DNA from: Micrococcales bacterium
Lineage (GTDB): Bacteria > Actinomycetota > Actinomycetes > Actinomycetales > Dermatophilaceae
Direction of reading: 5' to 3'
Length of the DNA stretch: 64,000 bases
Assembly (NCBI GenBank): GCA_021287075.1
Contig: JAJTBD010000004.1
Span: 62,001-126,000 of the forward strand
Below are positions 8,222-52,878 of this stretch, one piece after another. Every line of letters begins with the position of its first letter. The first letter of the stretch is position 1. The notes beneath the pieces are model-generated. The model saw nothing but the letters and a program-made list of their open reading frames with translations, was not told the DNA's origin and did not search any database. A program made the translations under genes and the position numbers.

Positions 8222-8262
8222 GGTATGCCGCGTGTGCAGCTGCGCACGCGGCATACCTTTTT
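8222..8262. terminator. Bidirectional terminator built from two GTATGCCGC motifs
   Basis: GGTATGCCGCGTG is mirrored by CACGCGGCATACC around a GCAGCTGC centre. There is one T-G wobble in 18-base arms, followed by TTTTTG on the + strand. It lies between two convergent genes (stops at 8203 and 8282). It is the first of three such hairpins in the window. Confidence 0.8.
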
Positions 8263-8281: not shown

Positions 8282-9265
8282 TCAGGCGCCCTCGAAATAG
8301 CGGCGCGGGTTGTCCACCAGCATCTGGTCGATCTGCTCCTGGGTGACGCCGGCCTCGAGCAGGGCGGGCAGGATGTCGGCGACGATGTGGCCGTAGTGCC
8401 AGTCGGGCACCGCCGGCATGATCTCCGGCGCGACCCAGTCGATGTGGCAGGACGCGTCGTGGGCCAGCACCATCCGGTCGGCGAAGCCCCGCTTGGCCAG
8501 CTCGACGACGACTCCCACGCGCTGCTCGGTGGAGGCCTCGAGCGTGATGCCGAAGCGGTCCATGCCCAGCCAGAAGCCGGCCTCGGCGAGCTCGCTGAGG
8601 TGGTCGGCGTCGGCGGTGTCACCGCTGTGGCCCAGGACGATCCGGCCCGGCTCGACGCCGAGGTCGTCGACAAGGACCTGCTTGACGAGCAGGCCCGTCC
8701 TGGAGTCGGGGTGGGTGTGCACGGTGATGGGCGTGCCGGTCTCGAGGTGGGCGGCGCCGACCGCCCGCATGATCCGCTCTACACCGGGTGTCATGCCGGG
8801 GGCGTCGATGGCGCACTTGAGCAGACCGGCCTTGACCCCCGTGCCGGCGATGCCGTCGCGGATGTCGCCGACGAACATCTCCACCATCGGCTCGGGCACC
8901 TCGGCGCCGACCATCGCGTTGAGCGCCGGCCCGCGGTAGTCGAAGAAGTGCGGCGCGGAGTCATAGGTGTACATGCCCGTCGCGACGACGATGTTGAGGT
9001 CCGGCACGCGCTCGGCCACCTGCTGCACCAGCGGGATGTCGCGGCCGAGGCCGACGACGGTGGGGTCGACGATCGTGCGGATGCCGTCGTCGACCAGCTG
9101 CTGGAGCTTGGTCGCCGCGTCGGCGATGCGCTCCTCCTCGGGGGCATAGAACTGCGGGTAGTTGGCCTTGATGTCGGCGCTGGTGACGAAGACATGCTCG
9201 TGCATATAGGTCTTGCCGAGGTCGGCGGTGTCGACCTGGCCTCGGATGGTCTCGATCTGCGCCAT
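8282..9265 (-). CDS. Phosphotriesterase family metal-dependent hydrolase
   Basis: A 327-residue TIM-barrel amidohydrolase of the phosphotriesterase/lactonase (PLL) type. It shows the first metal ligands in YMHEHVF (residues 21-27), the carboxylated lysine in GLLKCAID (about 150), then TVHTHP, LGHSGDT and LAHDASCH for the remaining ligands. Length and motif order match the family. Natural substrates are probably lactones or related esters, and organophosphate activity is promiscuous in this family. The start at 9265 has ATGGCGCAG with GAGCGCGCC upstream and no strong ribosome site. Confidence 0.85.
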   Translation of the reverse strand: MAQIETIRGQVDTADLGKTYMHEHVFVTSADIKANYPQFYAPEEERIADAATKLQQLVDDGIRTIVDPTVVGLGRDIPLVQQVAERVPDLNIVVATGMYTYDSAPHFFDYRGPALNAMVGAEVPEPMVEMFVGDIRDGIAGTGVKAGLLKCAIDAPGMTPGVERIMRAVGAAHLETGTPITVHTHPDSRTGLLVKQVLVDDLGVEPGRIVLGHSGDTADADHLSELAEAGFWLGMDRFGITLEASTEQRVGVVVELAKRGFADRMVLAHDASCHIDWVAPEIMPAVPDWHYGHIVADILPALLEAGVTQEQIDQMLVDNPRRYFEGA

Positions 9266-9371
9266 GGCGCGCTCCTTGGGTCTGAGGGCTGGGCTGCCGC
9301 CCGCGACGGGGCGGGCCGGGCCCTGCGCACGCTAGTGGCGCGGGTCACCGCCGCGCCAGAGGCTGTCCGCC

Positions 9372-9377
9372 TAGACT
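9372..9377 (+). promoter_or_regulatory. Probable -10 box of a leaderless transcript (lipase gene)
   Basis: TAGACT ends 6 bases before the GTG start at 9384. No ribosome binding site lies between. This matches at least nine other genes in the window. Confidence 0.6.
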
Positions 9378-9383
9378 CCCCGG

Positions 9384-10850
9384 GTGCCCCAGCCCTCCCG
9401 CCGCACGTGGTGGTATGCCGCGTCCGCCGCCCTCGTCACCGCCCTCACCGGCCTGACGTGGGGCTGTGCCGCGCGCGACGACGCTCCCACCGGCAGCTCG
9501 GCGAGCTCGACCGCCAGCTCGACGCCGAGGTCGACGGCGGGGTCGGCGCCCGGCGCGGCCGCCGCCAGCGGGGCCGCGACGGCGAGCACGGCCGATCCCG
9601 GAGTGAGCGGCAAGGTGGGCCCGGCGACCGGGCCGACGGGCAACGCGACCGGGCCCTCGCCCGCAGCGTCCGCCTCGACCCCGGGCGCGTCTCCGTCGGG
9701 CGACCCCGGTGACGCCACGGCCCCGACGGACGACTCCTTCTATACGCCGCCCGCAAAGCTGCTGGCCGGCCCGCACGGCTCGGTCATCTGGTCGCGGCGG
9801 ACGGCCGGGCCCAAGAGCGGCACGACCTGGCTGGTGCTCTATCGGTCGGTGGACCTGCACGGCAGACCGATCGCGGTCTCCGGGACGGTCTCGCTCCCCA
9901 ACGGCGCTGCGCCGCAAGGGGGCTGGCCCGTGCTGTCGTGGGCACACGGCACCACCGGTATCGCCGACCAGTGCGCCCCGACCCGCCTTGCGGGCGGCCT
10001 GCTCGGCGCCTATCAGGGCACGGTGCTGGCCTCCCTCGACCGGTGGCTCGATGCCGGGTATGCCGTGGCCGCCACCGACTACCAGGGCCTGGGCACGCCG
10101 GGCCCACACCCCTATCTGATCGGGCCCGCCGCGGCACGGTCGGTCACCGACGCCGCACTGGCGGCACGCGAGTTCTCGCCGAGTGTGTCCACGCAGTGGT
10201 TTGCGGCCGGGCACTCGCAGGGCGGGCACGCGGCGATGTGGACCGCGGGCGTCGGGCCAGCCTGGGCGCCGTCGATGCGGCTGCGCGGGGTCGTCGCGTT
10301 CGCGCCGCCGTCGGGCCTCGGTGGCGCGGTCGCGACGCTGCGCGGCCAGCCGCTCTCGGGCGGCGGCTTCATCCCGCTGCTGCTGCGGGGCGCCCAGACC
10401 GTCGAGTCATTGCCCGACGCCAAGCTGCTCACCCCGACGATGGCCAAGGCGATGCCCGAGGCCGACGCCTCCTGCATCGACCGCCTGATGTCGCCCACGG
10501 GCTGGGGCGGGCTCAAGACCAATGAGGTCTTCGTCCCCGACGCCGACCTCGCCCGCTTTGCCGCGGTGCTCGGCGCCAACGACCCGGTCAAGGCCAAACC
10601 GTCGGTGCCGGTCTATGTCGCCCAGGGTGGCCGCGACACGGTCGTCATGTCGGAGCTGACCGGCGAGCTGGTCGCCGCGCTCAAGGCGTCCGGCGCCAAG
10701 GTCACCTATCAGACCTATCCCGCCGCCGACCACCTCACCGTCCTGCCCCTGGCCGAGGCCGACGCCGCGACGTGGATGAACACCACCTGGGCCTCCGCCG
10801 CCAAGTCCACGCCAGCCAAGGCCACACCGCCCACCGCCACCTCTCGTTGA
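9384..10850 (+). CDS. Secreted lipase family protein (LIP-type alpha/beta hydrolase)
   Basis: A 488-residue exported protein. Residues 1-30 form a signal sequence (RRTWWYAASAALVTALTG) ending near a cysteine (LTWGCA) that resembles an imperfect lipobox. About 75 residues of Ser/Ala/Thr/Pro/Gly linker follow, then an alpha/beta hydrolase of the secretory lipase (LIP) family. The oxyanion region is SWAHGTTGIADQC, the nucleophile serine is in AGHSQGGHA (about 274), and the late histidine is in AADHLTVL. The C-terminus is again Ala/Thr/Pro rich. The stop codon TGA lies inside the left arm of the downstream 64-base hairpin. Confidence 0.85.
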   Translation: MPQPSRRTWWYAASAALVTALTGLTWGCAARDDAPTGSSASSTASSTPRSTAGSAPGAAAASGAATASTADPGVSGKVGPATGPTGNATGPSPAASASTPGASPSGDPGDATAPTDDSFYTPPAKLLAGPHGSVIWSRRTAGPKSGTTWLVLYRSVDLHGRPIAVSGTVSLPNGAAPQGGWPVLSWAHGTTGIADQCAPTRLAGGLLGAYQGTVLASLDRWLDAGYAVAATDYQGLGTPGPHPYLIGPAAARSVTDAALAAREFSPSVSTQWFAAGHSQGGHAAMWTAGVGPAWAPSMRLRGVVAFAPPSGLGGAVATLRGQPLSGGGFIPLLLRGAQTVESLPDAKLLTPTMAKAMPEADASCIDRLMSPTGWGGLKTNEVFVPDADLARFAAVLGANDPVKAKPSVPVYVAQGGRDTVVMSELTGELVAALKASGAKVTYQTYPAADHLTVLPLAEADAATWMNTTWASAAKSTPAKATPPTATSR

Positions 10851-10908
10851 CTTGTAGCAACTCACGCCTAAGAACCCCGTTTTAGGCGTGAGTTGCTACA
10901 AGTCAACG
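10845..10908. terminator. 64-base hairpin of the 27-10-27 family (copy 1)
   Basis: Two perfect 27-base arms enclose a 10-base loop. The arm starts CGTTGA and ends CTAA, and the loop is GAACCCCGTT. Each arm holds an inner imperfect palindrome (ACTTGTAGCAACT). The element lies between convergent genes and overlaps the lipase stop codon. Copy 2 at 18184 has the same sizes, ends and loop pattern but a different inner sequence. It is probably a bidirectional terminator, but the conserved shape suggests more. Confidence 0.8.
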
Positions 10909-10946
10909 GATCGGGAGGGGCCGACGGAGGGGTGGCGGGTGGCCGG

Positions 10947-12473
10947 TCAGCCGAGGCCGGCCCGGCGGATCTTGCCGTTGGCGGTGCGCGGCAGCCGGTC
11001 GGTGAAGACGATCTCGCGAGGGCGCTTGTAGGCCGCGAGGTGCTCCGCGGCATACCCCAGCAGTGCGGCGGCATCGACGCCGTCCGGCTCGTCGGGGTCG
11101 GCCGGCACGACGTATGCCGCGATGATGCTCACCCCTGGCCGCACCTCCAGCTCGCCGACCGCGACCTCGGCGACCGCGGGGTGCGCGGCGAGCACGTGCT
11201 CGACCTCGAGCGGCGAGACGCGGTAGCCGCCGGCGTTCATGATGTCGTCGTTGCGGCCGTGGTAGTGGACATAGCCGTCCTCGTCGAGATGCACCAGGTC
11301 GCTGGTCACGAACCACTCGCCGCGGGTGACCGCCGCCGTGTCCTCCGGCCGCTGCCAGTAGCCGAGCATGAGCCCCGGGTCGCTGCGGTGCACGGCGAGC
11401 AGGCCGGACTCCCCTGTCGCACAGGCCTCCTCGCCACCGTCGACCGGGAGCACCGCGACCCGCCGCCCCTCCTGGGCCCGACCCGGGCTGCCCGGCCTGA
11501 TCGGGACGCTCGGGCTCGTCGAGACGAAGGTCGAGATCTCGCTCATGCCGAGCGACTCATAGAGCTCCAGCCCGGTCGCCTCCCGCCACTCCTCGAGCAG
11601 CGCGGGGCTCAGGGCCTCGCCGGCCGTCAGGCCGTGGCGGAGCGAGGACAGGTCGTGGGCGCCCACGTCGCCATAGTGGAGCAGCTGGCGATAGACGCCC
11701 GGGACGGCGGCAAAGATCGTGGCGCCGTATCGCTCGATGAGCAGCGGCCAGATCGTGCGGTCGTGGGGACCGTTGTAGATCAACGCTGTTGCGCCGTTGG
11801 CCCACGGGTCGGTCAGGCCCACGCCGAGGGTGTAGGTCCAGTTGAAGGCACCCGCGTGCAGCATCGTGTCGTCGGGGCCGATGGCCTCCCACCCGGCATA
11901 CATCGGCCGGCGCCCCCACGCTGCCCGGTGCGCGTGCAGGACGCCCTTGGGCCGTCCGGTCGTGCCGGAGGTATAGACGAGGTATGCCGCGTCGTCCGCG
12001 GGCGTGTCCGCATAGTCGGCGCGCTCGCCGCCCTCCCGCCATCCGGCCAGATCGGCCGGCGTGACCTCGTGGACTCCGTCGGGCAGTGACACCCGCAGCT
12101 CCTCGCTCTGGACCAGCACCTCCGCACCCGAGTCAGCGAGGAGATAGTGGGCCTCCTCCTCGGTCAGCTGGGCCGAGCTCGGCAGCGAGACCAGGCCGGC
12201 CGCCATCGCGCCGAAATAGACGAGGGGATAGTCGCTGACATTGCCCAGGCGGACCATCACGCGCGAGCCCGGCTCCAGGCCGAGGCGCCCGAGCCCCGCG
12301 GCGACGGCCCGGACCGCGTCATCGAGCTGGGCATAGGTCCACCGCTCGGCCTGCCCGGCCGGGGCGTGGGCGTCGGACACGACGATGAGTGCCGTGTGGT
12401 CGGGGCGCTCGGCCGCGGGTCGCCCCACACAGTGCCGGGCCATCGAGAACCGCTCGGGCACAGGCTCGCTCAT
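10947..12473 (-). CDS. AMP-dependent acyl-CoA synthetase/ligase
   Basis: A 508-residue ANL-superfamily adenylating enzyme. It has the phosphate loop YTSGTTGRPKGV (about 168), the A5-like YESLGMSE, the hinge GRNDDIMNAGGYRVSP and the catalytic lysine in RTANGKIRR near the end. The sequence is closest in style to medium-chain or aryl-acid CoA ligases. The ATG at 12473 (MSEPVPERF) gives the normal length; a longer frame upstream overlaps the lrgA promoter and is unlikely. It is divergent from lrgAB. The acyl substrate is unknown. Confidence 0.85.
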   Translation of the reverse strand: MSEPVPERFSMARHCVGRPAAERPDHTALIVVSDAHAPAGQAERWTYAQLDDAVRAVAAGLGRLGLEPGSRVMVRLGNVSDYPLVYFGAMAAGLVSLPSSAQLTEEEAHYLLADSGAEVLVQSEELRVSLPDGVHEVTPADLAGWREGGERADYADTPADDAAYLVYTSGTTGRPKGVLHAHRAAWGRRPMYAGWEAIGPDDTMLHAGAFNWTYTLGVGLTDPWANGATALIYNGPHDRTIWPLLIERYGATIFAAVPGVYRQLLHYGDVGAHDLSSLRHGLTAGEALSPALLEEWREATGLELYESLGMSEISTFVSTSPSVPIRPGSPGRAQEGRRVAVLPVDGGEEACATGESGLLAVHRSDPGLMLGYWQRPEDTAAVTRGEWFVTSDLVHLDEDGYVHYHGRNDDIMNAGGYRVSPLEVEHVLAAHPAVAEVAVGELEVRPGVSIIAAYVVPADPDEPDGVDAAALLGYAAEHLAAYKRPREIVFTDRLPRTANGKIRRAGLG

Positions 12474-12566
12474 GCCCCCACTCTGCCAGCCGCGCGGCAT
12501 ACCCGCCGTGGGCCCGGACACCCCGAGGGGTACGGGCCTGTCGGGCCCGGTGGGAGAATGGCGGTC

Positions 12567-13070
12567 ATGCTCTCCGGACTCATCGCGCTCCTGGCGTGCC
12601 AGCTGGCCGGGGAGTTCCTCGTGCGGGCGCTGTCGTTGCGCGTGCCCGGCCCCGTCGTCGGGATGCTCCTGCTCCTCGCCTTCCTCACGATCCGCGACTG
12701 GCGGCGGCACGCCGCGCCGCCGCCGGAGGAGTCCAGCCGGGTGGAGCGGGCGGCCGACGCCTTCCTCACGCATCTGCCCGTGCTCTTCATCCCCGCCGCC
12801 GTCGGGGTCATGCAGTATTTCGACGTCATCGCCGAGCACTGGGGGCCCGTCCTCGGCGGCAATGTCATCGCCTGGCTGGCCACCCTGGTGATCACGGCCG
12901 GGGCCGCACAGCTCATGCTCACGCTGCTGCCCGACTCGCTCACTGGCGACCCCGAGGAGGCCGAGGCGCGCGCCATGGTCCGCGAGGCCGACCGCATCGA
13001 GGGCCTCGAGGCCGACGACGCCGAGGGGCCCGGCCGGCGCGGTCCGGAGAGTGAGGGAGAGCGCCGATGA
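12567..13070 (+). CDS. lrgA: LrgA/CidA family membrane protein
   Basis: A 167-residue holin-like protein with four membrane helices. It shows the family order: CQLAGEFLVRALSLRVPGPVVGMLLLL, then ADAFLTHLPVLFIPAAVGVMQ. A charged, acidic C-terminal tail of about 40 residues (GDPEEAEARAMVREADR) is longer than usual. I chose the ATG at 12567 because a GAGAAT -10 box ends 7 bases before it; an in-frame ATG at 12558 would fall too close. LrgA works with LrgB to modulate murein hydrolase export or pyruvate transport. The TGA overlaps the lrgB ATG. Confidence 0.85.
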   Translation: MLSGLIALLACQLAGEFLVRALSLRVPGPVVGMLLLLAFLTIRDWRRHAAPPPEESSRVERAADAFLTHLPVLFIPAAVGVMQYFDVIAEHWGPVLGGNVIAWLATLVITAGAAQLMLTLLPDSLTGDPEEAEARAMVREADRIEGLEADDAEGPGRRGPESEGERR

Positions 13071-13780
13071 ACCTCGACGGTGCCTTCGAGGCGATCACCC
13101 ACTCACCGCTCTTCGCGCTGCTGCTGACGCTCGCGGCATACCAGGCCAGCGTCTGGCTGTGGCGCAAGGCGGGGCGCACCCCGCTGCTCACGCCGGTCTT
13201 CATCGCGATCATCACCGTCGTGCTGGTGCTGCTCGCGATGGGAGTGGACTATGCGACCTACATGGAGGGCGGGCAATATCTCAGCTTCCTCCTCGGGCCC
13301 GCCGTCGTCGCGCTCGCCGTGCCGCTGCACCGGGCCTCGGCCTCCATCCGCTCGCTCGCGATCCCCGTGGTGGTCGGGGTGGTCGTCGGCGCCGCGGGAG
13401 CGATCGTCGCGTCGGTGCTGACCGTGCGGCTGCTCGGTGGCAGCGAGGAGCTCGCGATGACGATGGCCCCGAAGTCGGCCACCACCCCCATCGCGATCGC
13501 GCTCGCCCCGAGCATCGGCGGAGTCGCCTCTCTCGCAGCGGTGTTCACGATGATCACGGGCGTGCTGTGCGCGATCGTCGGCCCGGCCGTGCTCAACCTG
13601 CTGCGGGTGCGCGACACCCGCGTGCGCGGCCTCGCCCTCGGCGTCTCGGGGCATGGCGTCGGGACCTCCCGCGCCCTCCAGGCCGGGCCGGTGCAGGGTG
13701 CCTTCGCCGCGCTGGCCATGGCGATGACCGGCGTGGCCACGAGTCTGTTCCTCCCGCTGGTCATCGCCCTCCTCGGCTGA
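13067..13780 (+). CDS. lrgB: LrgB family membrane protein
   Basis: A 237-residue protein with seven or more membrane segments and both LrgB hallmarks: MAPKSATTPIAIALAPSIGG (about 142) and GVSGHGVGTSRALQ (about 201). It starts with an ATGA overlap on lrgA, so the pair is coupled. LrgA/LrgB are linked to autolysis control and to pyruvate uptake in other bacteria. No LytTR-type regulator is next to the pair here, so control is unknown. Confidence 0.9.
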   Translation: MNLDGAFEAITHSPLFALLLTLAAYQASVWLWRKAGRTPLLTPVFIAIITVVLVLLAMGVDYATYMEGGQYLSFLLGPAVVALAVPLHRASASIRSLAIPVVVGVVVGAAGAIVASVLTVRLLGGSEELAMTMAPKSATTPIAIALAPSIGGVASLAAVFTMITGVLCAIVGPAVLNLLRVRDTRVRGLALGVSGHGVGTSRALQAGPVQGAFAALAMAMTGVATSLFLPLVIALLG

Positions 13781-13787
13781 CCTCGGG

Positions 13788-13825
13788 GATAGACGATCTA
13801 CCCTTGTCGGCGGTAGATTTCTACC
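13788..13825. promoter_or_regulatory. VapBC autoregulatory operator and leaderless promoter
   Basis: Two related inverted repeats, GATAGACGATCTACC (13788-13802) and GGTAGATTTCTACC (13812-13825), share GGTAGA/TCTACC half-sites with 24 bases between starts. The second one contains the -10 box TAGATT and abuts the vapB ATG at 13826 directly. No ribosome site fits between. VapB binding would therefore block both RNA polymerase and the transcript start. Confidence 0.7.
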
Positions 13826-14095
13826 ATGGGCCTGAACATCAAGAACGAGCGCGTGCACGAGCTCGCCCGCCGCGCCGCCGCCGTGACGGGCAAGAGCCAG
13901 ACGGGGGCGATCGAGGAGGCGCTCGAGCGGCTCCTCGCCGAGCACGGGCACGACCCGGTGGCCGCCCAGGCCCAGGCCAGGGTCGACCGGGCCCAGCAGA
14001 TCGTGGCCGACTACGCCGCCCTGCCCGCACAGCGCCGGCGTCAGATCCGGCGCGCCGAGGACCTCTACGACGACGCGACCGGGATGCCCCGGTGA
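13826..14095 (+). CDS. vapB: Type II antitoxin, VapB/Rv0623-like
   Basis: An 89-residue antitoxin of the PSK/Rv0623-like VapB family. The N-terminal ribbon-helix-helix begins GLNIKNERVHELARRAAAVTGKSQT. A charged helical C-terminus (residues 50-85) would wrap the toxin. The two GGTAGA palindromes upstream fit autorepression. Its TGA overlaps the GTG of the toxin gene, so toxin translation depends on that of the antitoxin. The pair is isolated between lrgAB and the MMPL gene. Confidence 0.88.
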   Translation: MGLNIKNERVHELARRAAAVTGKSQTGAIEEALERLLAEHGHDPVAAQAQARVDRAQQIVADYAALPAQRRRQIRRAEDLYDDATGMPR

Positions 14096-14481
14096 TCGTC
14101 GACACCTCCGCCCTCATCGCGATCATCGAGGGCGAGCCCGGCAGCGAGGAGCTGCTGCGCCTGGCCGCCACCTCGACCTGTCGGATGTCGGTGGCCAGCC
14201 AGCTGGAGGCGGGCATCGTCGCCGATGCCCGGTCCACCTCACACGGCGCGCGCCTCGACGAGCTCATCGAGGCGCTCGAGATCGAGCTGGTGCCCGTGAG
14301 CGTGCGCGATGCGGCGGTGGCCCGCCACGCCTATCGACGGTTCGGCCGCGGGTCCGGCTCGGCCGCCGCGCTCAACTACGGCGACTGCTTCGCCTATGCG
14401 CTGTCGGTCACGAGCGGCGAGCCGCTGCTCTTTGTCGGCGACGACTTCACCCACACCGACGTCGCCAGCGCGCGCCCCTGA
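14092..14481 (+). CDS. vapC: PIN-domain ribonuclease toxin VapC
   Basis: A 129-residue PIN-domain endoribonuclease. The first acidic residue is in IVDTSALIAII (residues 2-12), a conserved glutamate is in SQLEAGIV, and the later acids are in NYGDCFAYAL and FVGDDFTHTD. The motif GSAAALNYGDCFAYALS is typical of the VapC group paired with Rv0623-like antitoxins. Translation starts at GTG 14092 within vapB's stop. The target RNA is unknown. Confidence 0.88.
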   Translation: MIVDTSALIAIIEGEPGSEELLRLAATSTCRMSVASQLEAGIVADARSTSHGARLDELIEALEIELVPVSVRDAAVARHAYRRFGRGSGSAAALNYGDCFAYALSVTSGEPLLFVGDDFTHTDVASARP

Positions 14482-14495
14482 GCGACAGACCAGGA

Positions 14496-14530
14496 GAGGT
14501 ATGCCGCGGGGCGACCCCGCGGCATACCTC
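14496..14530. terminator. GTATGCCGC hairpin between convergent genes (copy 2)
   Basis: Perfect 16-base arms (GAGGTATGCCGCGGGG and its complement) surround a 3-base CGA loop. It lies between vapC (stop 14481) and the MMPL gene (stop 14564). There is no T-tract on either side, so it may rely on stem strength alone or act otherwise. Confidence 0.7.
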
Positions 14531-14563
14531 CAGGTCGGCGGCCGGCACCGAGACGGCGCGGCC

Positions 14564-16702
14564 TCAGTCGCCGTGCTTGGCCCTGCGCAGGCGGCTGGGC
14601 CACCAGATGCGGTCGCCGAGGTCGACGGCCAGGGCCGGCACGAGCAGCGAGCGCACGACGATGGTGTCGAGCAGCACGCCGAAGGCCACGATGAAGGCGA
14701 TCTGCACCATGAACAGCAGCGGCAGGACCGTCAGCGCCGAGAAGGTCGCGGCCAGCACGATGCCGGCGCTGGTGATCACGCCGCCGGTGACGGCCAGACC
14801 GATGAGCGTGCCCTCGCGGGTGCCGCGCCGCATCGACTCCTCGCGCACCCGGGTCATCAGGAAGATCGAGTAGTCGATGCCGAGCGCGACGAGGAAGACG
14901 AAGCCATAGAGCGGGGTGGCCGGGTCGGAGCCGGGGAAGTCCCACACGTGGTTGAACAGCAGCGCGGCGACGCCGAGGGTGGCGGCAAACGAGATCACGT
15001 TGGCCACGATCAGGATGACCGGCGCCACGATCGAGCGCAGCAGCAGGCACAGCACGAGGAAGACCACGGCCAGGATCGCCGGGATGATCACCTTGAGGTC
15101 GCGCTGGCTGGCGGTGCGGGTGTCGAGGTTGGCCGCGGTGGTCCCGCCGACCAGGACGTCCTCGGAGACGCTGTCGAGGTCGGCGCGGAGGCGGCTGATC
15201 ACCTCGTCGGCCTCGACGCTGTCGGCCGACTTCTCCAGGGTCGCGGTGACGACCTGGAGCCCGTCCACCGGCTGGCTCGGCTGCCCCGGACTCAGGCCGA
15301 TCAGGGGGTTGCTGATGTCGGCCTCGTCCTTGAGGCGGGCGACCACCGCGTCGGCCTTGTCGGCCGGGGTGATGATCTGCACCGGGCTGCCGGAGCCGGC
15401 GTCGAAGTGCTTCGCCAGCGCCTCCTGCCCGGTGACCGACTCGGGGGTGTTGAGGAAGGTGTCGCCCTCCGTGATGCCCGCGTCCTTGAAGGTCGGCAGG
15501 AATGCCGCGGCCGCGAGCAGGGCGGCCAGCGTGATCACCCAGGTGCGGCGCGGGTGCTCGCCCACCATGCGGGCCACGCGACCCCAGACGCTGCGGGTGC
15601 CGAGGGCGTCCTCGCGGTGGACGTGGTCGACGCGCGGGATGGCCGGCCAGAAGATCGCCCGGCCAAAGAGCAGGAGCACGGCGGGCAGGAAGGTGAGCGC
15701 CGCCAGCAGCGCACCGGCGATGCCGAGCGCCCCGACCGGGCCCAGGCCGGAGGTGCTGCCGAGGTCGGAGAGCAGCAGGCAGAGCAGGCCCAGGATGACG
15801 GTGGCGCCGCTGGCGATGATGGGCTCGACCGAGGCCTTCCAGGCGGTCTTCATCGCCTCCCAGGTCGACTCGGTGTCGTGCAGCTCCTCGCGGTATCGGC
15901 TGACGAGCAGCAGCGCATAGTCGGTGGCGGCGCCGACGACGAGGATCGAGAGGATGCCCTGCGACTGGCCGGACAGGCCGATGTGGCCGCCCTTGGCGAG
16001 CGGATAGACCACGAGCGCGGCGACGGCCAGACCGAAGACGGCCGTGATGAGCACGGCGATGGGCAGGATCGGGCTGCGATAGACGATGAGCAGGATGACG
16101 AAGACGACCGCGAGCGCGGTGAGCAGCAGGATCCCGTCGATGCCCGCGAACGCGTTGACGAGGTCGGCGACGATGCCGCCGGGGCCGGTCACCTGGCTCT
16201 CGATGCCGTTGGGCTTGAGGCTGTCGTCGAGCTCGCGCAGCGCATCGACGCTCGCCTGGAGGGGAGTGCCCTCGCCGACGGTCTCGCTCGCCCGGCCGGC
16301 GTCGAGGTTGACGATCATCAGGGCGGCGGTGCCGTCCTTGCTCGGGATGGCCGCGGGGGTGCCGACGAGGTAGTCGCCGATCGTGCGGCTCTGGCCGTCG
16401 CCGAGGTCGATGGCGGTCTGGGGCACCTTGGCCGCCAGCGCCTGGACCGCCGCGAGGTCGGCCCGCTCCAGCTTGGCCGACTTCTCCATCACGACCATGA
16501 CGGGCAGGGCCTCGGTGTCGGTGAAGTCACCGAGCCGCTCGCTCACCTTGGTCGACTCGGCCGTCGCCGGCAGGAATGCCGCGTTGCCGTTCTCCTGGAC
16601 CTCGCTGAGCTTGCCGACGGTCGGGCCGCCGAGCCCGCCGATCGCCAGCCAGGCGAGGACGGCGAGCAGGGCCAGCAGTCGGACGGTCCATCGAGAGCGC
16701 AT
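14564..16702 (-). CDS. MMPL family RND transporter
   Basis: A 712-residue membrane transporter. It has two MMPL modules, each with an external domain followed by a bundle of membrane helices, about 11-12 in total. The first bundle includes ILSILVVGAATDYALLLVSR and the second GFVFLVALGIDYSIFLMTRV; both carry the Asp-Tyr pair used in proton relay. Members export lipids or hydrophobic compounds. The ATG at 16702 starts a normal signal-anchor (RSRWTVRLLALLAVLAWL). It is divergent from the TetR gene, with palindromic operators between. Confidence 0.9.
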   Translation of the reverse strand: MRSRWTVRLLALLAVLAWLAIGGLGGPTVGKLSEVQENGNAAFLPATAESTKVSERLGDFTDTEALPVMVVMEKSAKLERADLAAVQALAAKVPQTAIDLGDGQSRTIGDYLVGTPAAIPSKDGTAALMIVNLDAGRASETVGEGTPLQASVDALRELDDSLKPNGIESQVTGPGGIVADLVNAFAGIDGILLLTALAVVFVILLIVYRSPILPIAVLITAVFGLAVAALVVYPLAKGGHIGLSGQSQGILSILVVGAATDYALLLVSRYREELHDTESTWEAMKTAWKASVEPIIASGATVILGLLCLLLSDLGSTSGLGPVGALGIAGALLAALTFLPAVLLLFGRAIFWPAIPRVDHVHREDALGTRSVWGRVARMVGEHPRRTWVITLAALLAAAAFLPTFKDAGITEGDTFLNTPESVTGQEALAKHFDAGSGSPVQIITPADKADAVVARLKDEADISNPLIGLSPGQPSQPVDGLQVVTATLEKSADSVEADEVISRLRADLDSVSEDVLVGGTTAANLDTRTASQRDLKVIIPAILAVVFLVLCLLLRSIVAPVILIVANVISFAATLGVAALLFNHVWDFPGSDPATPLYGFVFLVALGIDYSIFLMTRVREESMRRGTREGTLIGLAVTGGVITSAGIVLAATFSALTVLPLLFMVQIAFIVAFGVLLDTIVVRSLLVPALAVDLGDRIWWPSRLRRAKHGD

Positions 16703-16743
16703 GTCTGAGTCTTCCCCATCGCGGCCGGGGATCCGCCCAGCCA

Positions 16744-16797
16744 TTGCGAACATTGTTTGCAATATCGACCGTACGCCTTCGGGTACAGTGTTCGCAA
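16744..16797. promoter_or_regulatory. TetR-type operator in the MMPL/TetR divergent promoter
   Basis: TTGCGAACATTGTTTGCAA (16744-16762) is a near-perfect inverted repeat of TTGC(G/A)AACA. The half-site TGTTCGCAA recurs at 16789-16797. Placement between the divergent MMPL exporter and its TetR neighbour fits joint repression released by the exported ligand. Confidence 0.7.
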
Positions 16798-16834
16798 ATG
16801 GGCGACCCGGTGGGTCTGGCGAGGGAGGACAGCG

Positions 16835-17497
16835 GTGAGCGGCGCCGTCAGCGAGAGCATCTGGCTGCGTCCGAGCACCTCGGGTGTAGGCCGGCCCGCC
16901 TCCCACAGCCGGGACGAGATCACGGCGGCCGCCATCGCACTGGCCGACCGCGACGGCCTCGCGGCTGTGACGATGCGCGCGGTCGCCGCCGAGCTGGGGG
17001 CCGGGGCGGCCTCGCTCTATCGCCACATCGGCAACCGCGACGACCTGCTCGACCTCATGGTCGACGCCACCTCGGCCGACATCGACCCCACCACCCCGCC
17101 CGGCAGGGCCGGCCTGATCACCCTCGGTGAGCGGCTGCTGACCGTCATGCAGCGTCACACGTGGCTGCCCGAGCTCGTGATAACCCGCAGCGCCTTCGGC
17201 CCGCACGGCACCGAGGTCCTCGAGCGCTGGCTCGGGCTCCTTGCCGAGCACCCCGCTCCTGCGGCCGACAAGCTCGAGGCCTATGCCCTCGTCACCGCGT
17301 TCGCGGCGACCTTCGCGCAGGCCAACCTGTCCAGCGGGGGCGCGCACACGGCATACCTCATGTATGCCGCACGCGATGGCGAGCACCCCCACCTCGCCGC
17401 GGCCGTCGCCGACATGGGTGGCGGGGTCGACGACGTGCACCGCTTTGACGTGACGCTGGGCAAGCTGCTCGACGGCCTCCTCGGTGTCGAGCGATGA
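16835..17497 (+). CDS. TetR/AcrR family regulator (C-terminal TetR_C type)
   Basis: A 220-residue repressor. The helix-turn-helix is at about 28-70: AAAIALADRDGLAAVTMRAVA then LGAGAASLYRHIGNRDDLLDLM. The rest is the helical ligand domain. The GTG at 16835 has GGAGGA 5 bases upstream. The stop overlaps the next gene's ATG, coupling it to a methyltransferase. It likely represses itself and the divergent MMPL exporter through the TTGC(G/A)AACA palindromes. Confidence 0.85.
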   Translation: MSGAVSESIWLRPSTSGVGRPASHSRDEITAAAIALADRDGLAAVTMRAVAAELGAGAASLYRHIGNRDDLLDLMVDATSADIDPTTPPGRAGLITLGERLLTVMQRHTWLPELVITRSAFGPHGTEVLERWLGLLAEHPAPAADKLEAYALVTAFAATFAQANLSSGGAHTAYLMYAARDGEHPHLAAAVADMGGGVDDVHRFDVTLGKLLDGLLGVER

Positions 17498-18147
17498 CCC
17501 CGATCGACCCGACGCTGCTCCAGAAAGCCCTGGCCGCAAAGGGATTCATGCCCGAGGACGAGGGCATGCTCCTCTATGAGGAGGCCGTGCGACGACTGCC
17601 CCACGGGCCCGGGCTCGAGGTCGGCACGTGGTGCGGCAAGTCGGCTGTCTATCTCGGCGCTGCCGCCCGAGCCTGCGGCACAACGGTTTTCACCGTCGAC
17701 CACCACCGGGGCTCCGAGGAGAACCAGCCCGGCTGGGACTATCACGACGCCACGCTCGTCGACCCGTCCTGCGGGCGCATCGACACCCTGCCCTTCTTCC
17801 GACGCACGATCACCGACGCTGGCCTCGAGGAGGAGGTCGTCGCGATCGTGGGTCAAGCACCGACCGTCGCACGGCACTGGCGCACCCCGCTCTCGCTGCT
17901 CTTCATCGACGGCGGCCACACCGACGAGCACGTCACCAACGACTACGAGGGCTTCGGCCGCTGGGTGATGGCCGGCGGCTCGATGGTCATCCACGACGTC
18001 TTCGAGCGCCCCGAGGACGGCGGCCAGCCGCCCTGGCGCTGCTATCGGCGCTCGCTCGCCTCCGGCGACTGGCAGGAGATCGAGGCACTCGGCTCGATGC
18101 GCATCCTGCGTCGGACCGGCGGCGATGCCGGCGACCCCGTCCACTGA
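17494..18147 (+). CDS. Class I SAM-dependent methyltransferase-like protein
   Basis: A 217-residue Rossmann-type methyltransferase. The SAM-binding region is LEVGTWCGKSAVYLG (about 41-55), motif II acids are in TVFTVDHHRGSEEN, and LLFIDGGHTDEHVTNDYEGF is like the methyltransf_24 group. It starts within the TetR stop codon. It runs towards the terpenoid-toroid/methyltransferase/glycosyltransferase cluster on the other strand and probably belongs to the same pathway. The substrate is unknown. Confidence 0.8.
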   Translation: MTPIDPTLLQKALAAKGFMPEDEGMLLYEEAVRRLPHGPGLEVGTWCGKSAVYLGAAARACGTTVFTVDHHRGSEENQPGWDYHDATLVDPSCGRIDTLPFFRRTITDAGLEEEVVAIVGQAPTVARHWRTPLSLLFIDGGHTDEHVTNDYEGFGRWVMAGGSMVIHDVFERPEDGGQPPWRCYRRSLASGDWQEIEALGSMRILRRTGGDAGDPVH

Positions 18148-18183
18148 CCGCCCGCGTCACGTCCTCCGGGGCTCCCGACATCG

Positions 18184-18247
18184 CGTTGAAAACATTGGTT
18201 TCAACGCTAAAGCCCAGTTCTTAGCGTTGAAACCAATGTTTTCAACG
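18184..18247. terminator. 64-base hairpin of the 27-10-27 family (copy 2)
   Basis: Perfect 27-base arms, with arm start CGTTGA and arm end CTAA as in copy 1 at 10845. The 10-base loop is AGCCCAGTTC, comparable with GAACCCCGTT. The arm's core GTTGAAAACATTGGTTTCAAC is itself an imperfect palindrome. The element is AT-richer than its surroundings and lies between convergent stops at 18147 and 18256. Confidence 0.8.
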
Positions 18248-18255
18248 ACACCGGG

Positions 18256-19281
18256 TCAGGGGCGGAAGACCTCGGCGCCGGGGGTGAGGTCGAGCAGCGC
18301 ATCGCAGGCGAGGATGACGGCGGCGCCGGTCCAGGTCGACCGCTCGATCGGCCAGCGCTTGCCATCGGCATAGACATAGCCGGTGTGATAGCTGCCGTCG
18401 GGGTCGCGCAGGTGCTGCATGTCGAGCACCAGCCGCTCCGCTCGCGCCCGGTCTCCCATCCCCTCCAGCGCCAGCGCCAGCTCACACGTCTCGGCACCGG
18501 TCACCCAGGGCGCGTCGTCGACGCAGAGGATGCCGAGACCCGGGACGACGAAGTCCTCCCAGCGGCCCTCGATGCGGGCGTATGCCGCGTCGCCGGTGAG
18601 TGCCCCGCCGAGCGCCGGGTAGTACCAGTCCATCGAGAAGCGGCGCTTGGGCTCGAACTCCTCCTCACGGCGCTGGAGTGCGACGGCGACCCGCTCGCGC
18701 GCCCCCCGCCATGCGGAGGCGTCCTCGCCGAGCAGGTCGGCGAGCCGCTCACCGCACTGGAGAGCGTGGTGGATGCTCGAGCTGCCGGTGACGAGCGCCG
18801 TTGTCGCAGGCCCGAATTCGCCGAAGGCCCACGAGAACCCGCCGAACGGCAGCTGCATCGTGACGGCGAAGTCGAGGGCGGCCCGCACGGTCGGCCACAT
18901 CGACTCGACGAAGGCCCGGTCACGCCGCACGAGCCAGTGGTGCCAGACCCCGACCGCCACATAGGTGCACTGGTTGGTGTCGGCCCCCGACTCCTCGATC
19001 ACCCCGTCCTGGAGCTTGGTCGGCCAGGTGCCGTCCGCCCGCTGGGTGGCGCGCAGCCAGGCGAAGGCGGCGTCAGCGGCGGCATACTCCCCTGTCACGC
19101 CCAGCGCCATCGCGCACTCGACGTGGTCCCAGACATCGGTGTGCGAGCCGCTCTCCCAAGGGATCTCGCCATCTGCCCGCTGCACCGACGCGATGTATGC
19201 CGCGGTCTCGCGCAGCATCGCGGGCGTGGGCAGGCTGGCGGCCGGCTCCGGCTGGGGGAGGTCGGCAGGGAGCGGGATCAC
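18256..19281 (-). CDS. Terpenoid-cyclase-like (alpha/alpha toroid) protein, often annotated prenyltransferase
   Basis: A 341-residue soluble protein rich in repeated helical units with QxxDG-type turns (SVQRADGEIPWESGSHTDVWDHVE and ATQRADGTWP), like squalene-cyclase or prenyltransferase toroids. It shares a reverse-strand operon with a methyltransferase and a glycosyltransferase; the stop of the upstream methyltransferase lies 10 bases before the GTG. The ends of the repeats carry many acidic and Trp residues suited to a sugar or lipid pocket. Glycoside-processing (six-hairpin) activity is an alternative to terpenoid chemistry. Confidence 0.65.
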   Translation of the reverse strand: MIPLPADLPQPEPAASLPTPAMLRETAAYIASVQRADGEIPWESGSHTDVWDHVECAMALGVTGEYAAADAAFAWLRATQRADGTWPTKLQDGVIEESGADTNQCTYVAVGVWHHWLVRRDRAFVESMWPTVRAALDFAVTMQLPFGGFSWAFGEFGPATTALVTGSSSIHHALQCGERLADLLGEDASAWRGARERVAVALQRREEEFEPKRRFSMDWYYPALGGALTGDAAYARIEGRWEDFVVPGLGILCVDDAPWVTGAETCELALALEGMGDRARAERLVLDMQHLRDPDGSYHTGYVYADGKRWPIERSTWTGAAVILACDALLDLTPGAEVFRP

Positions 19282-19291
19282 GGGGACGGGC

Positions 19292-20005
19292 TCAGGCCGG
19301 CTTGCGGAAGTAGAGGACGACCGACTTGCCGAGGACCGGGTTGAGCACCCGCTCGGCGGTCCGGGTCAGGCGCGGGGCCTTCATGATGTCCCAGACGAGG
19401 AGGCGGTGATAGGCCTTCACGAGCGGGTTGTCGTCGTTGTCGACGCCGACGGCGCACTTGAGCCACCAGTATGGCGCATGCAGCGCGTGGGCGTGGCCGC
19501 GGCCCTCGGGCTCCAGGCCGGCCTGGCTGATCTTGCCGACCAGCTCGTCGGCGTTGTAGATGCGCACGTGGCCGCCCTCGACCTCGTGGTACTCATCGGA
19601 CAGCGCCCAGCAGATGCGCTCGGGGAATGCCGCGGGGACGGTGACCGCGAGGGTGCCACCGGGTCGCAGCACCCGGACGAGCTCGGCGATCGCGGTGCGG
19701 TCGTCGGGGATGTGCTCGAGGATCTCGGCGGCGACGACCCGGTCGAACTCACCGTCGGCGAAGGGCATGTGCAGCGCGTCGCCCTCGACGGTGACGGCCT
19801 TGGCGCCCTCGGGCACCTGGCCCTCGAGCTCCATGGCGCCAAACATGGTGGCGACGCCCTCGAGCTCCGTCGCGTCCTGGTCGAAGGCCACGACATCGGC
19901 GCCGCGGCGATACATCTCGAAGGCGTGGCGCCCGGCGCCCGCGCCCATGTCGAGGACGCGCTCGCCGGGCTCGAGGCCCAGCCGGTCGAAGTCGACGGTC
20001 AGCAT
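19292..20005 (-). CDS. Class I SAM-dependent methyltransferase (UbiE-like)
   Basis: A 237-residue methyltransferase with motif I VLDMGAGAGRHAFEM (about 18-32), motif II VVAFDQDATEL, motif III VTVEGDALHMPFADGEFD and motif IV VLRPGGTLAVTVP. The ATG at 20005 begins 8 bases after the glycosyltransferase stop. A longer frame would read the upstream tandem repeat and is rejected. It probably modifies a glycolipid or polyprenyl intermediate made by the neighbours, which is inference from the operon. Confidence 0.85.
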   Translation of the reverse strand: MLTVDFDRLGLEPGERVLDMGAGAGRHAFEMYRRGADVVAFDQDATELEGVATMFGAMELEGQVPEGAKAVTVEGDALHMPFADGEFDRVVAAEILEHIPDDRTAIAELVRVLRPGGTLAVTVPAAFPERICWALSDEYHEVEGGHVRIYNADELVGKISQAGLEPEGRGHAHALHAPYWWLKCAVGVDNDDNPLVKAYHRLLVWDIMKAPRLTRTAERVLNPVLGKSVVLYFRKPA

Positions 20006-37030: not shown

Positions 37031-37043
37031 CGGCTCGCGGGCG

Positions 37044-37099
37044 CTTTGGCCCAGTTGGGCACGATCGCCCCGGGGCGGTTGTGCCCAACTGGGCCAAAG
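37044..37099. terminator. Long inverted repeat between convergent genes
   Basis: Perfect 19-base arms (CTTTGGCCCAGTTGGGCAC and its complement) with an 18-base spacer that itself pairs (CGCCCC/GGGGCG). The arm contains an inner palindrome, TTGGCCCAGTTGGGC-like. It lies between the SnoaL-like gene and an uncharacterised reverse-strand gene. It is similar in position to the 27-10-27 hairpins but differs in sizes and ends. Confidence 0.75.
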
Positions 37100-37111
37100 G
37101 GCAGCGGTGGG

Positions 37112-52801: not shown

Positions 52802-52820
52802 CCCAATGCCTCAGACCGCA

Positions 52821-52858
52821 AGGGGTATGCCGCGGGCTCGGGCCCGCGGCATACCCCT
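52821..52858. terminator. GTATGCCGC hairpin between convergent genes (copy 3)
   Basis: Perfect 17-base arms (AGGGGTATGCCGCGGGC and its complement) around a 4-base loop. It is placed between the quinone oxidoreductase (stop 52801) and paiB (stop 52879). Like copy 2 it lacks a T-tract. Confidence 0.75.
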
Positions 52859-52878
52859 CGTCTGTGGGTGCTCGCCGG

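Follow-up and report, generated by a model that had tools for sequence, protein, structure and literature searches.

Palindromic elements of about 64 nucleotides, a probable phylum-wide family of bidirectional 3'-end hairpins with lineage-specific stems in Actinobacteria

The window analysed here, a stretch of 64,000 nucleotides from the genome of a Micrococcales bacterium (hereafter the host), contains two hairpins whose coordinates, together with those of the neighbouring genes, are collected in the table below. The plan described in a first-pass annotation of this DNA is present in both, with 27-nt arms that are 100% complementary, 10-nt loops, a common CGTTGA start and a common CTAA/TTAG foot of the loop, and gene calls and Pfam matches agree with its placement of both hairpins between converging genes. 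The CCC..GTT pattern noted in the two loops does not hold as a feature of the family, in which only the loop length and an R..Y bias recur, and the internal palindrome attributed to each arm is clear in element 2 (CGTTGAAA-N7-TTTCAACG), where each arm is itself a 23-bp palindrome CGTTGA-N11-TCAACG, but imperfect in element 1. The latter supplies, with its CGTTGA end, the TGA stop codon (bases 10848-10850) of the ORF 9384-10850. In the window, the pattern CGTTGA-N10..30-CTAA-N3..15-TTAG matches at these two sites only (four matches, both strands) and at none in 100 dinucleotide shuffles, and the RNA folding energies are -50.5 kcal/mol (z -13.9) for element 1 and -40.9 kcal/mol (z -11.8) for element 2; chance is thus excluded for both hairpins by the shuffles of the pattern and of the folding energy.

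Table. Coordinates of the two hairpins and of the genes around them.
Feature	Position	Strand	Basis
Gene ending within element 1, secretory-lipase family PF03583	9384..10850	+	heuristic gene call, Pfam
Element 1, class A, 27-10-27 hairpin with perfect stem	10845..10908	.	arm comparison, folding
Element 1 left arm, CGTTGACTTGTAGCAACTCACGCCTAA	10845..10871	+	arm comparison
Element 1 loop, 10 nt, GAACCCCGTT, middle of the 18-nt linker CTAA-N10-TTAG	10872..10881	.	
Element 1 right arm, exact reverse complement of the left arm	10882..10908	-	
Convergent partner at element 1, AMP-binding enzyme PF00501	10947..12473	-	gene call, Pfam
Methyltransferase gene PF13578, upstream of element 2	17494..18147	+	gene call, Pfam
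Element 2, class B, 27-10-27 hairpin with perfect stem	18184..18247	.	arm comparison, folding
Element 2 left arm, CGTTGAAAACATTGGTTTCAACGCTAA	18184..18210	+	arm comparison
Element 2 loop, 10 nt, AGCCCAGTTC	18211..18220	.	
Element 2 right arm, exact reverse complement of the left arm	18221..18247	-	
Convergent partner at element 2, without Pfam match	18256..19281	-	gene call, Pfam

The annotation had also proposed a search of the genome for further copies, and these were found, with shared ends and sizes. As counted by pattern and covariance model searches, the exact pattern occurs at 6 places in the host genome and at 18 when up to two mismatches are allowed, and the addition of a covariance model (R1) brings the total to 21 loci. 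The loop measures 10 nt in all strict host matches, although lengths of 2-30 were permitted. Thirteen loci resemble element 1 and constitute class A, whose arms read CGTTGACTTG-(TAG, TCA, TGA, TGG)-CAACTCACGC and lack the second half-site; the arms belonging to one class A element differ less from each other than do arms shuffled between elements (25 vs 35.2 mismatches, p 0.002). The other 8, similar to element 2, form class B and consist of CGTTGA-N11-TCAACG units whose centres are, for instance, AAACATTGGTT or RTCCSAGCGRY. Three-unit arrays of 23-bp palindromes with a 41-bp period make up two class B loci (C13:49449-49553 and C2:40260-40364), and at a further one (C43:71286) the two units point the same way, which indicates that linker length (18 nt) and step (41 bp) stay constant also between unlike arms. 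No single perfect long hairpin is present at five class B loci, namely these three, C23:4751 and C23:5822. On anatomical grounds alone, the 41-bp arrays were not taken for integron attC sites or CRISPR-like arrays.

Other repeats were observed in the host. The 10-mer GGTATGCCGC is far commoner than expected, with 82 copies in 178 kb of host sequence (0.8 expected by base composition), for example at 8222-8257, 14496-14530 and 52819-52860 of the window, where 16 of its 30 copies are intergenic despite 88% coding and where some form short hairpins. A second palindromic repeat, found at 37041-37102 as a near-perfect 62-bp palindrome with units CTTTGGCCCAGTTGGGCAC.., is also located just upstream of C43:71286, and its core GCCCARYTGGGC, in two forms, occurs 10 times in 178 kb, both strands included. 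Downstream of a class A element at 9958-10021 of contig C24 (L042) lies an inverted repeat ATGCATTGCCCC...GGGGCAATGCAT.

A scan of 297 genomes of the class for the exact left half of the pattern, giving no match in the 296 other than the host, first suggested a repeat restricted to this lineage, an idea overturned by the covariance search, which retrieved the same plan with changed stems. Among 84,980 genomes, the sole other species with the exact pattern is Nocardiopsis endophytica, whose genome has further copies with the same geometry, even in a search that left the gap lengths open; a common GGMCCTGTCCGGAGT stretch, perhaps a further repeat, precedes two elements of this species (L057 and L058). 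A second model (R2), made of host and Nocardiopsis elements only, found copies in other genomes, including a genus (E 1.9e-9) that we take to be mycobacterium-like from its sequence type GAGCAGACGCAAAATCGCCC. With a third model (R3), searched in 40 genomes and with matches counted on both strands and then halved, at least 66 loci were obtained in each of three Nocardiopsis-like genomes (G281, G377 and G343), about 54 in a mycobacterium-like one (G135), and about 18 and about 22 in two genomes of the host's own family (G022 and G011). R3 matches beyond its training set in G022 (E 3.3e-15) and G012 (E 6.6e-14) are each exactly 64 nt long, as are elements lying beyond all training sets (L080, CGTCGAGATAGACCAAATCGCCCGGGAAACG..., and L082, CGTCGAGATGACACGACACGCCGACGGAACC...); weak R3 matches that are shorter GC-rich hairpins of 39-52 nt were treated as ordinary hairpins and excluded from the member counts. 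The plan of about 64 nt is constant over lineages, other genera of the host's family included, and the stem particular to each of them, with ends of the CGTTGA, CGTCGAG or CGGYGAGCAG kind and a linker often of the CTAAAAC..GTTTTAG kind. Conservation extends outward in G281 as CCTC/GAGG, so that the 64 nt represent there a core without sharp boundary. No matching family was found in Rfam 15 at gathering or relaxed thresholds, which returned only sub-threshold miRNA look-alikes, and no element was detected, at the sensitivity used, in phages and plasmids by BLAST of family members or in viral contigs by one pattern scan. It is fairly likely that the two hairpins belong to a phylum-wide family of palindromic 3'-end elements of about 64 nt.

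The elements lie a few tens of bases behind stop codons, in most cases where genes converge. According to heuristic gene calls based on codon-position composition, 14 of the 21 host loci are convergent, 6 tandem and none divergent, one being in an ORF, as compared with 9 convergent, 12 tandem and 13 divergent among all gaps between genes that span 64 bp or more in the window (p 0.0009 for the avoidance of divergent gaps and p 0.004 for the convergent excess). Elements of other lineages are distributed among 28 convergent, 32 tandem and 6 divergent positions, and the median distance from stop codon to element is about 30 nt in G281. Read toward the element, the flanks of both strands are rich in C and poor in G (C 0.51 and G 0.24 in the host, 0.51 and 0.17 in G281, against about 0.38 and 0.35 behind other stop codons), C being the more frequent of the two in 28 of 32 flanks from the host and in 54 of 64 from G281. 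Orthologous copies occupy one site in two related genomes (L064 and L065; 88% identity over 3 kb).

The stems display extensive compensatory change. In 17 diverse elements, 96% of the cells are paired, against 35-41% in slid controls, and both sides have changed at 25 of 27 pairs, in a set partly found by a structure-scoring model and so biased toward pairing; the patterns that retrieved the host elements and the first Nocardiopsis ones, however, did not require complementarity. The cleanest set, 28 distinct elements of G281 that are also the best-scoring ones and thus biased toward perfect pairing, has 755 of 756 cells paired, with 24 both-side changes, a single one-sided change (G-U) and a single broken pair, and in two of its members (L154 and L184) the inner stem is mostly replaced on both arms. 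Pair cells are not independent events since some changes are common by descent, and near-perfect pairing is not uniform over lineages, as G343, G377 and the host have more one-sided and broken pairs and the covariation signal is weaker in G343 and G377. Because selection on RNA alone should leave more one-sided G-U states, of which G281 has almost none, it is reasonable to infer that copying from arm to arm at the DNA level partly keeps the arms matched. Such copying alone would also match the arms, and compensation is therefore no proof of an RNA function.

The annotation held that plain terminators do not keep arm length, ends and loop while the stem changes. This was a fair remark in respect of ordinary rho-independent terminators, alike by chance and otherwise unrelated, an explanation that we regard as scarcely credible. 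It would fit hairpins that are intergenic and close to stop codons, as well as some of the weak R3 matches (L088, L091 and L093-L096), which are the shorter GC-rich ordinary hairpins; however, no U-tract follows the hairpin directly in the flanks inspected, the elements go unreported when positions 9000-20000 of the window are scanned for simple terminators (stems of up to 20 pairs, loops of 3-8), the 64-nt size and the ends are fixed in the 13 class A copies, and the exact left-half pattern is missing from the 296 other class genomes scanned. A sequence-conserved hairpin associated with terminators, TRIT, is nevertheless on record from M. tuberculosis. In the RNIE work of Gardner et al. in 2011, TRIT is reportedly a highly conserved hairpin enriched near the gene ends of this species, and the present family likewise consists of sequence-conserved hairpins enriched at gene 3' ends. 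By this description TRIT would be the closest named motif, the mycobacterium-like copies (GAGCAGACGCAAAATCGCCC..) lying at 3' ends and within the same covariance family; unlike TRIT, the family includes other stems (CGTTGACTTGTAG, CGTTGATCTCGGG, CGTCGAGATAG) in other Actinobacteria and the class B arrays. A TRIT model exists according to PMC3526491. A strong hairpin free of U-tract shortly after the stop codon is also the mark of the I-shaped terminators of GC-rich bacteria, reported within 50 bp of stop codons in mycobacteria (PMC12288462), and structured 3' ends lacking U are reported in Streptomyces (PMC8269248). Shape is the sole defining feature of that class, whereas length, ends and linker are conserved here and the copies are repeats, and termination of the mycobacterial RNA polymerase by U-less hairpins is disputed, with papers cited on both sides (PMC12288462).

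The mobile or maintained element of REP/BIME type proposed in the annotation stands as regards a maintained and repeated element with variable stem and with the anatomy and placement of REPs, BIMEs and REPINs, but not as regards membership among REPs. A non-autonomous element of this kind, in which a transposase acting in trans would move two inverted REP-type hairpins together and which would be found at 3' ends because insertion does little harm there, is an unlikely reading of the family. It would account for two inverted units with a short linker and fixed size, in many copies that are extragenic, lineage-specific in sequence and homogeneous within a genome, for the class B arms that are separate short palindromes in two- and three-unit arrays of fixed 41-bp period, and for a 3'-end bias, compensatory changes and an occasional ORF copy or supply of a stop codon, location and compensatory change being as in published REPINs (PMC3116915) and REPs (PMC3733652). 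The ORF copy (P0001, G000:C13:161299-161362) runs in frame through a linker of an open CydD-like ABC-transporter gene, a region of 48-84 aa in relatives and 70 aa in the host by empty-site comparison, where an insertion is plausible; that copies move is argued from this copy together with the high copy number and the lineage-specific sequence. Against this reading, neither the host genome nor any of 24 further genomes of its family, the carriers G022 and G011 among them, has a PF01797 (Y1/RAYT) match, and on this ground the RAYT hypothesis as stated was rejected; the Y1 matches existing in G343, G281 and G135 have no element within 1.5 kb. Flanking direct repeats indicative of target-site duplication do not exceed expectation in G281, G343 and G377 (the host being judged by eye only), no GTAG/GTGG or CGTC tag occurs at the hairpin foot, TTAG/CTAA in the host and variable elsewhere, and phages, plasmids and viral contigs gave no copy at the sensitivity used. 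Moreover, a hairpin formed by one arm by itself, the defining trait of a REP, is weak in class A and not general across the wider family, and the hairpin plan recurs across the class with changed stems. For the spread of the copies, REPIN-like multiplication without RAYT is the closest analogy. It is also conceivable, though unlikely, that a palindrome family widespread in Actinobacteria and free of a dedicated Y1 transposase multiplies and rewrites its stem at the DNA level by foldback copying, one arm serving as template for the other over exactly 27 bp, and has been recruited to end both transcripts where genes converge; each lineage would then carry a dialect of one fixed geometry. Binding sites of a dimeric regulator or nucleoid protein, with CGTTGA/TCAACG half-sites at helical phasing, are suggested by the 23-bp palindromic units spaced 41 bp apart (about four helical turns) and sometimes direct instead of inverted (C43:71286), but are very improbable in view of half-sites that differ between lineages with compensation, the location at 3' ends and not promoters, and class A elements devoid of the second half-site.

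What an element does at its site is a question separate from the origin of its copies. For the former, the bidirectional 3'-end hairpin is the best supported explanation owing to the placement, the flanks and the pairing of the elements. We favour, with some confidence and from sequence evidence, a phylum-wide family of such hairpins diversified by lineage, nearest to TRIT and spread in the manner of REPINs though without RAYT, the two of the window probably forming the 3' ends of the converging mRNAs. In each convergent transcript the element would adopt a highly stable hairpin fold right behind the stop codon, which would fix the mRNA 3' end and keep either transcript from entering the neighbouring gene. 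The hairpin could itself be a terminator of the U-less, I-shaped type, or it could set a boundary for trimming and protection after termination by Rho, two possibilities between which the sequence does not discriminate; the P0001 copy counts against a strong terminator, since termination inside an open transporter gene would be harmful. The missing U-tract, the five class B loci that form no single perfect long hairpin and the weaker covariation in G343 and G377 likewise speak against the favoured reading. Copies may multiply inside a genome as whole units, and their arms may stay matched partly by foldback or template switching, an arm-to-arm copying proposed on account of the near absence of G-U intermediates in the cleanest data set.

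TRIT has, to our knowledge, been reported only from M. tuberculosis gene ends. If the proposed family is real, this motif would be the dialect of one lineage within an element that is widespread in Actinobacteria and reaches tens of copies in a genome, and the genome in which the stems show almost no one-sided changes would allow arm-to-arm correction to be measured in natural palindromes. The family would also bear on how transcripts end and how convergent genes are kept separate in GC-rich bacteria with few U-tract terminators.
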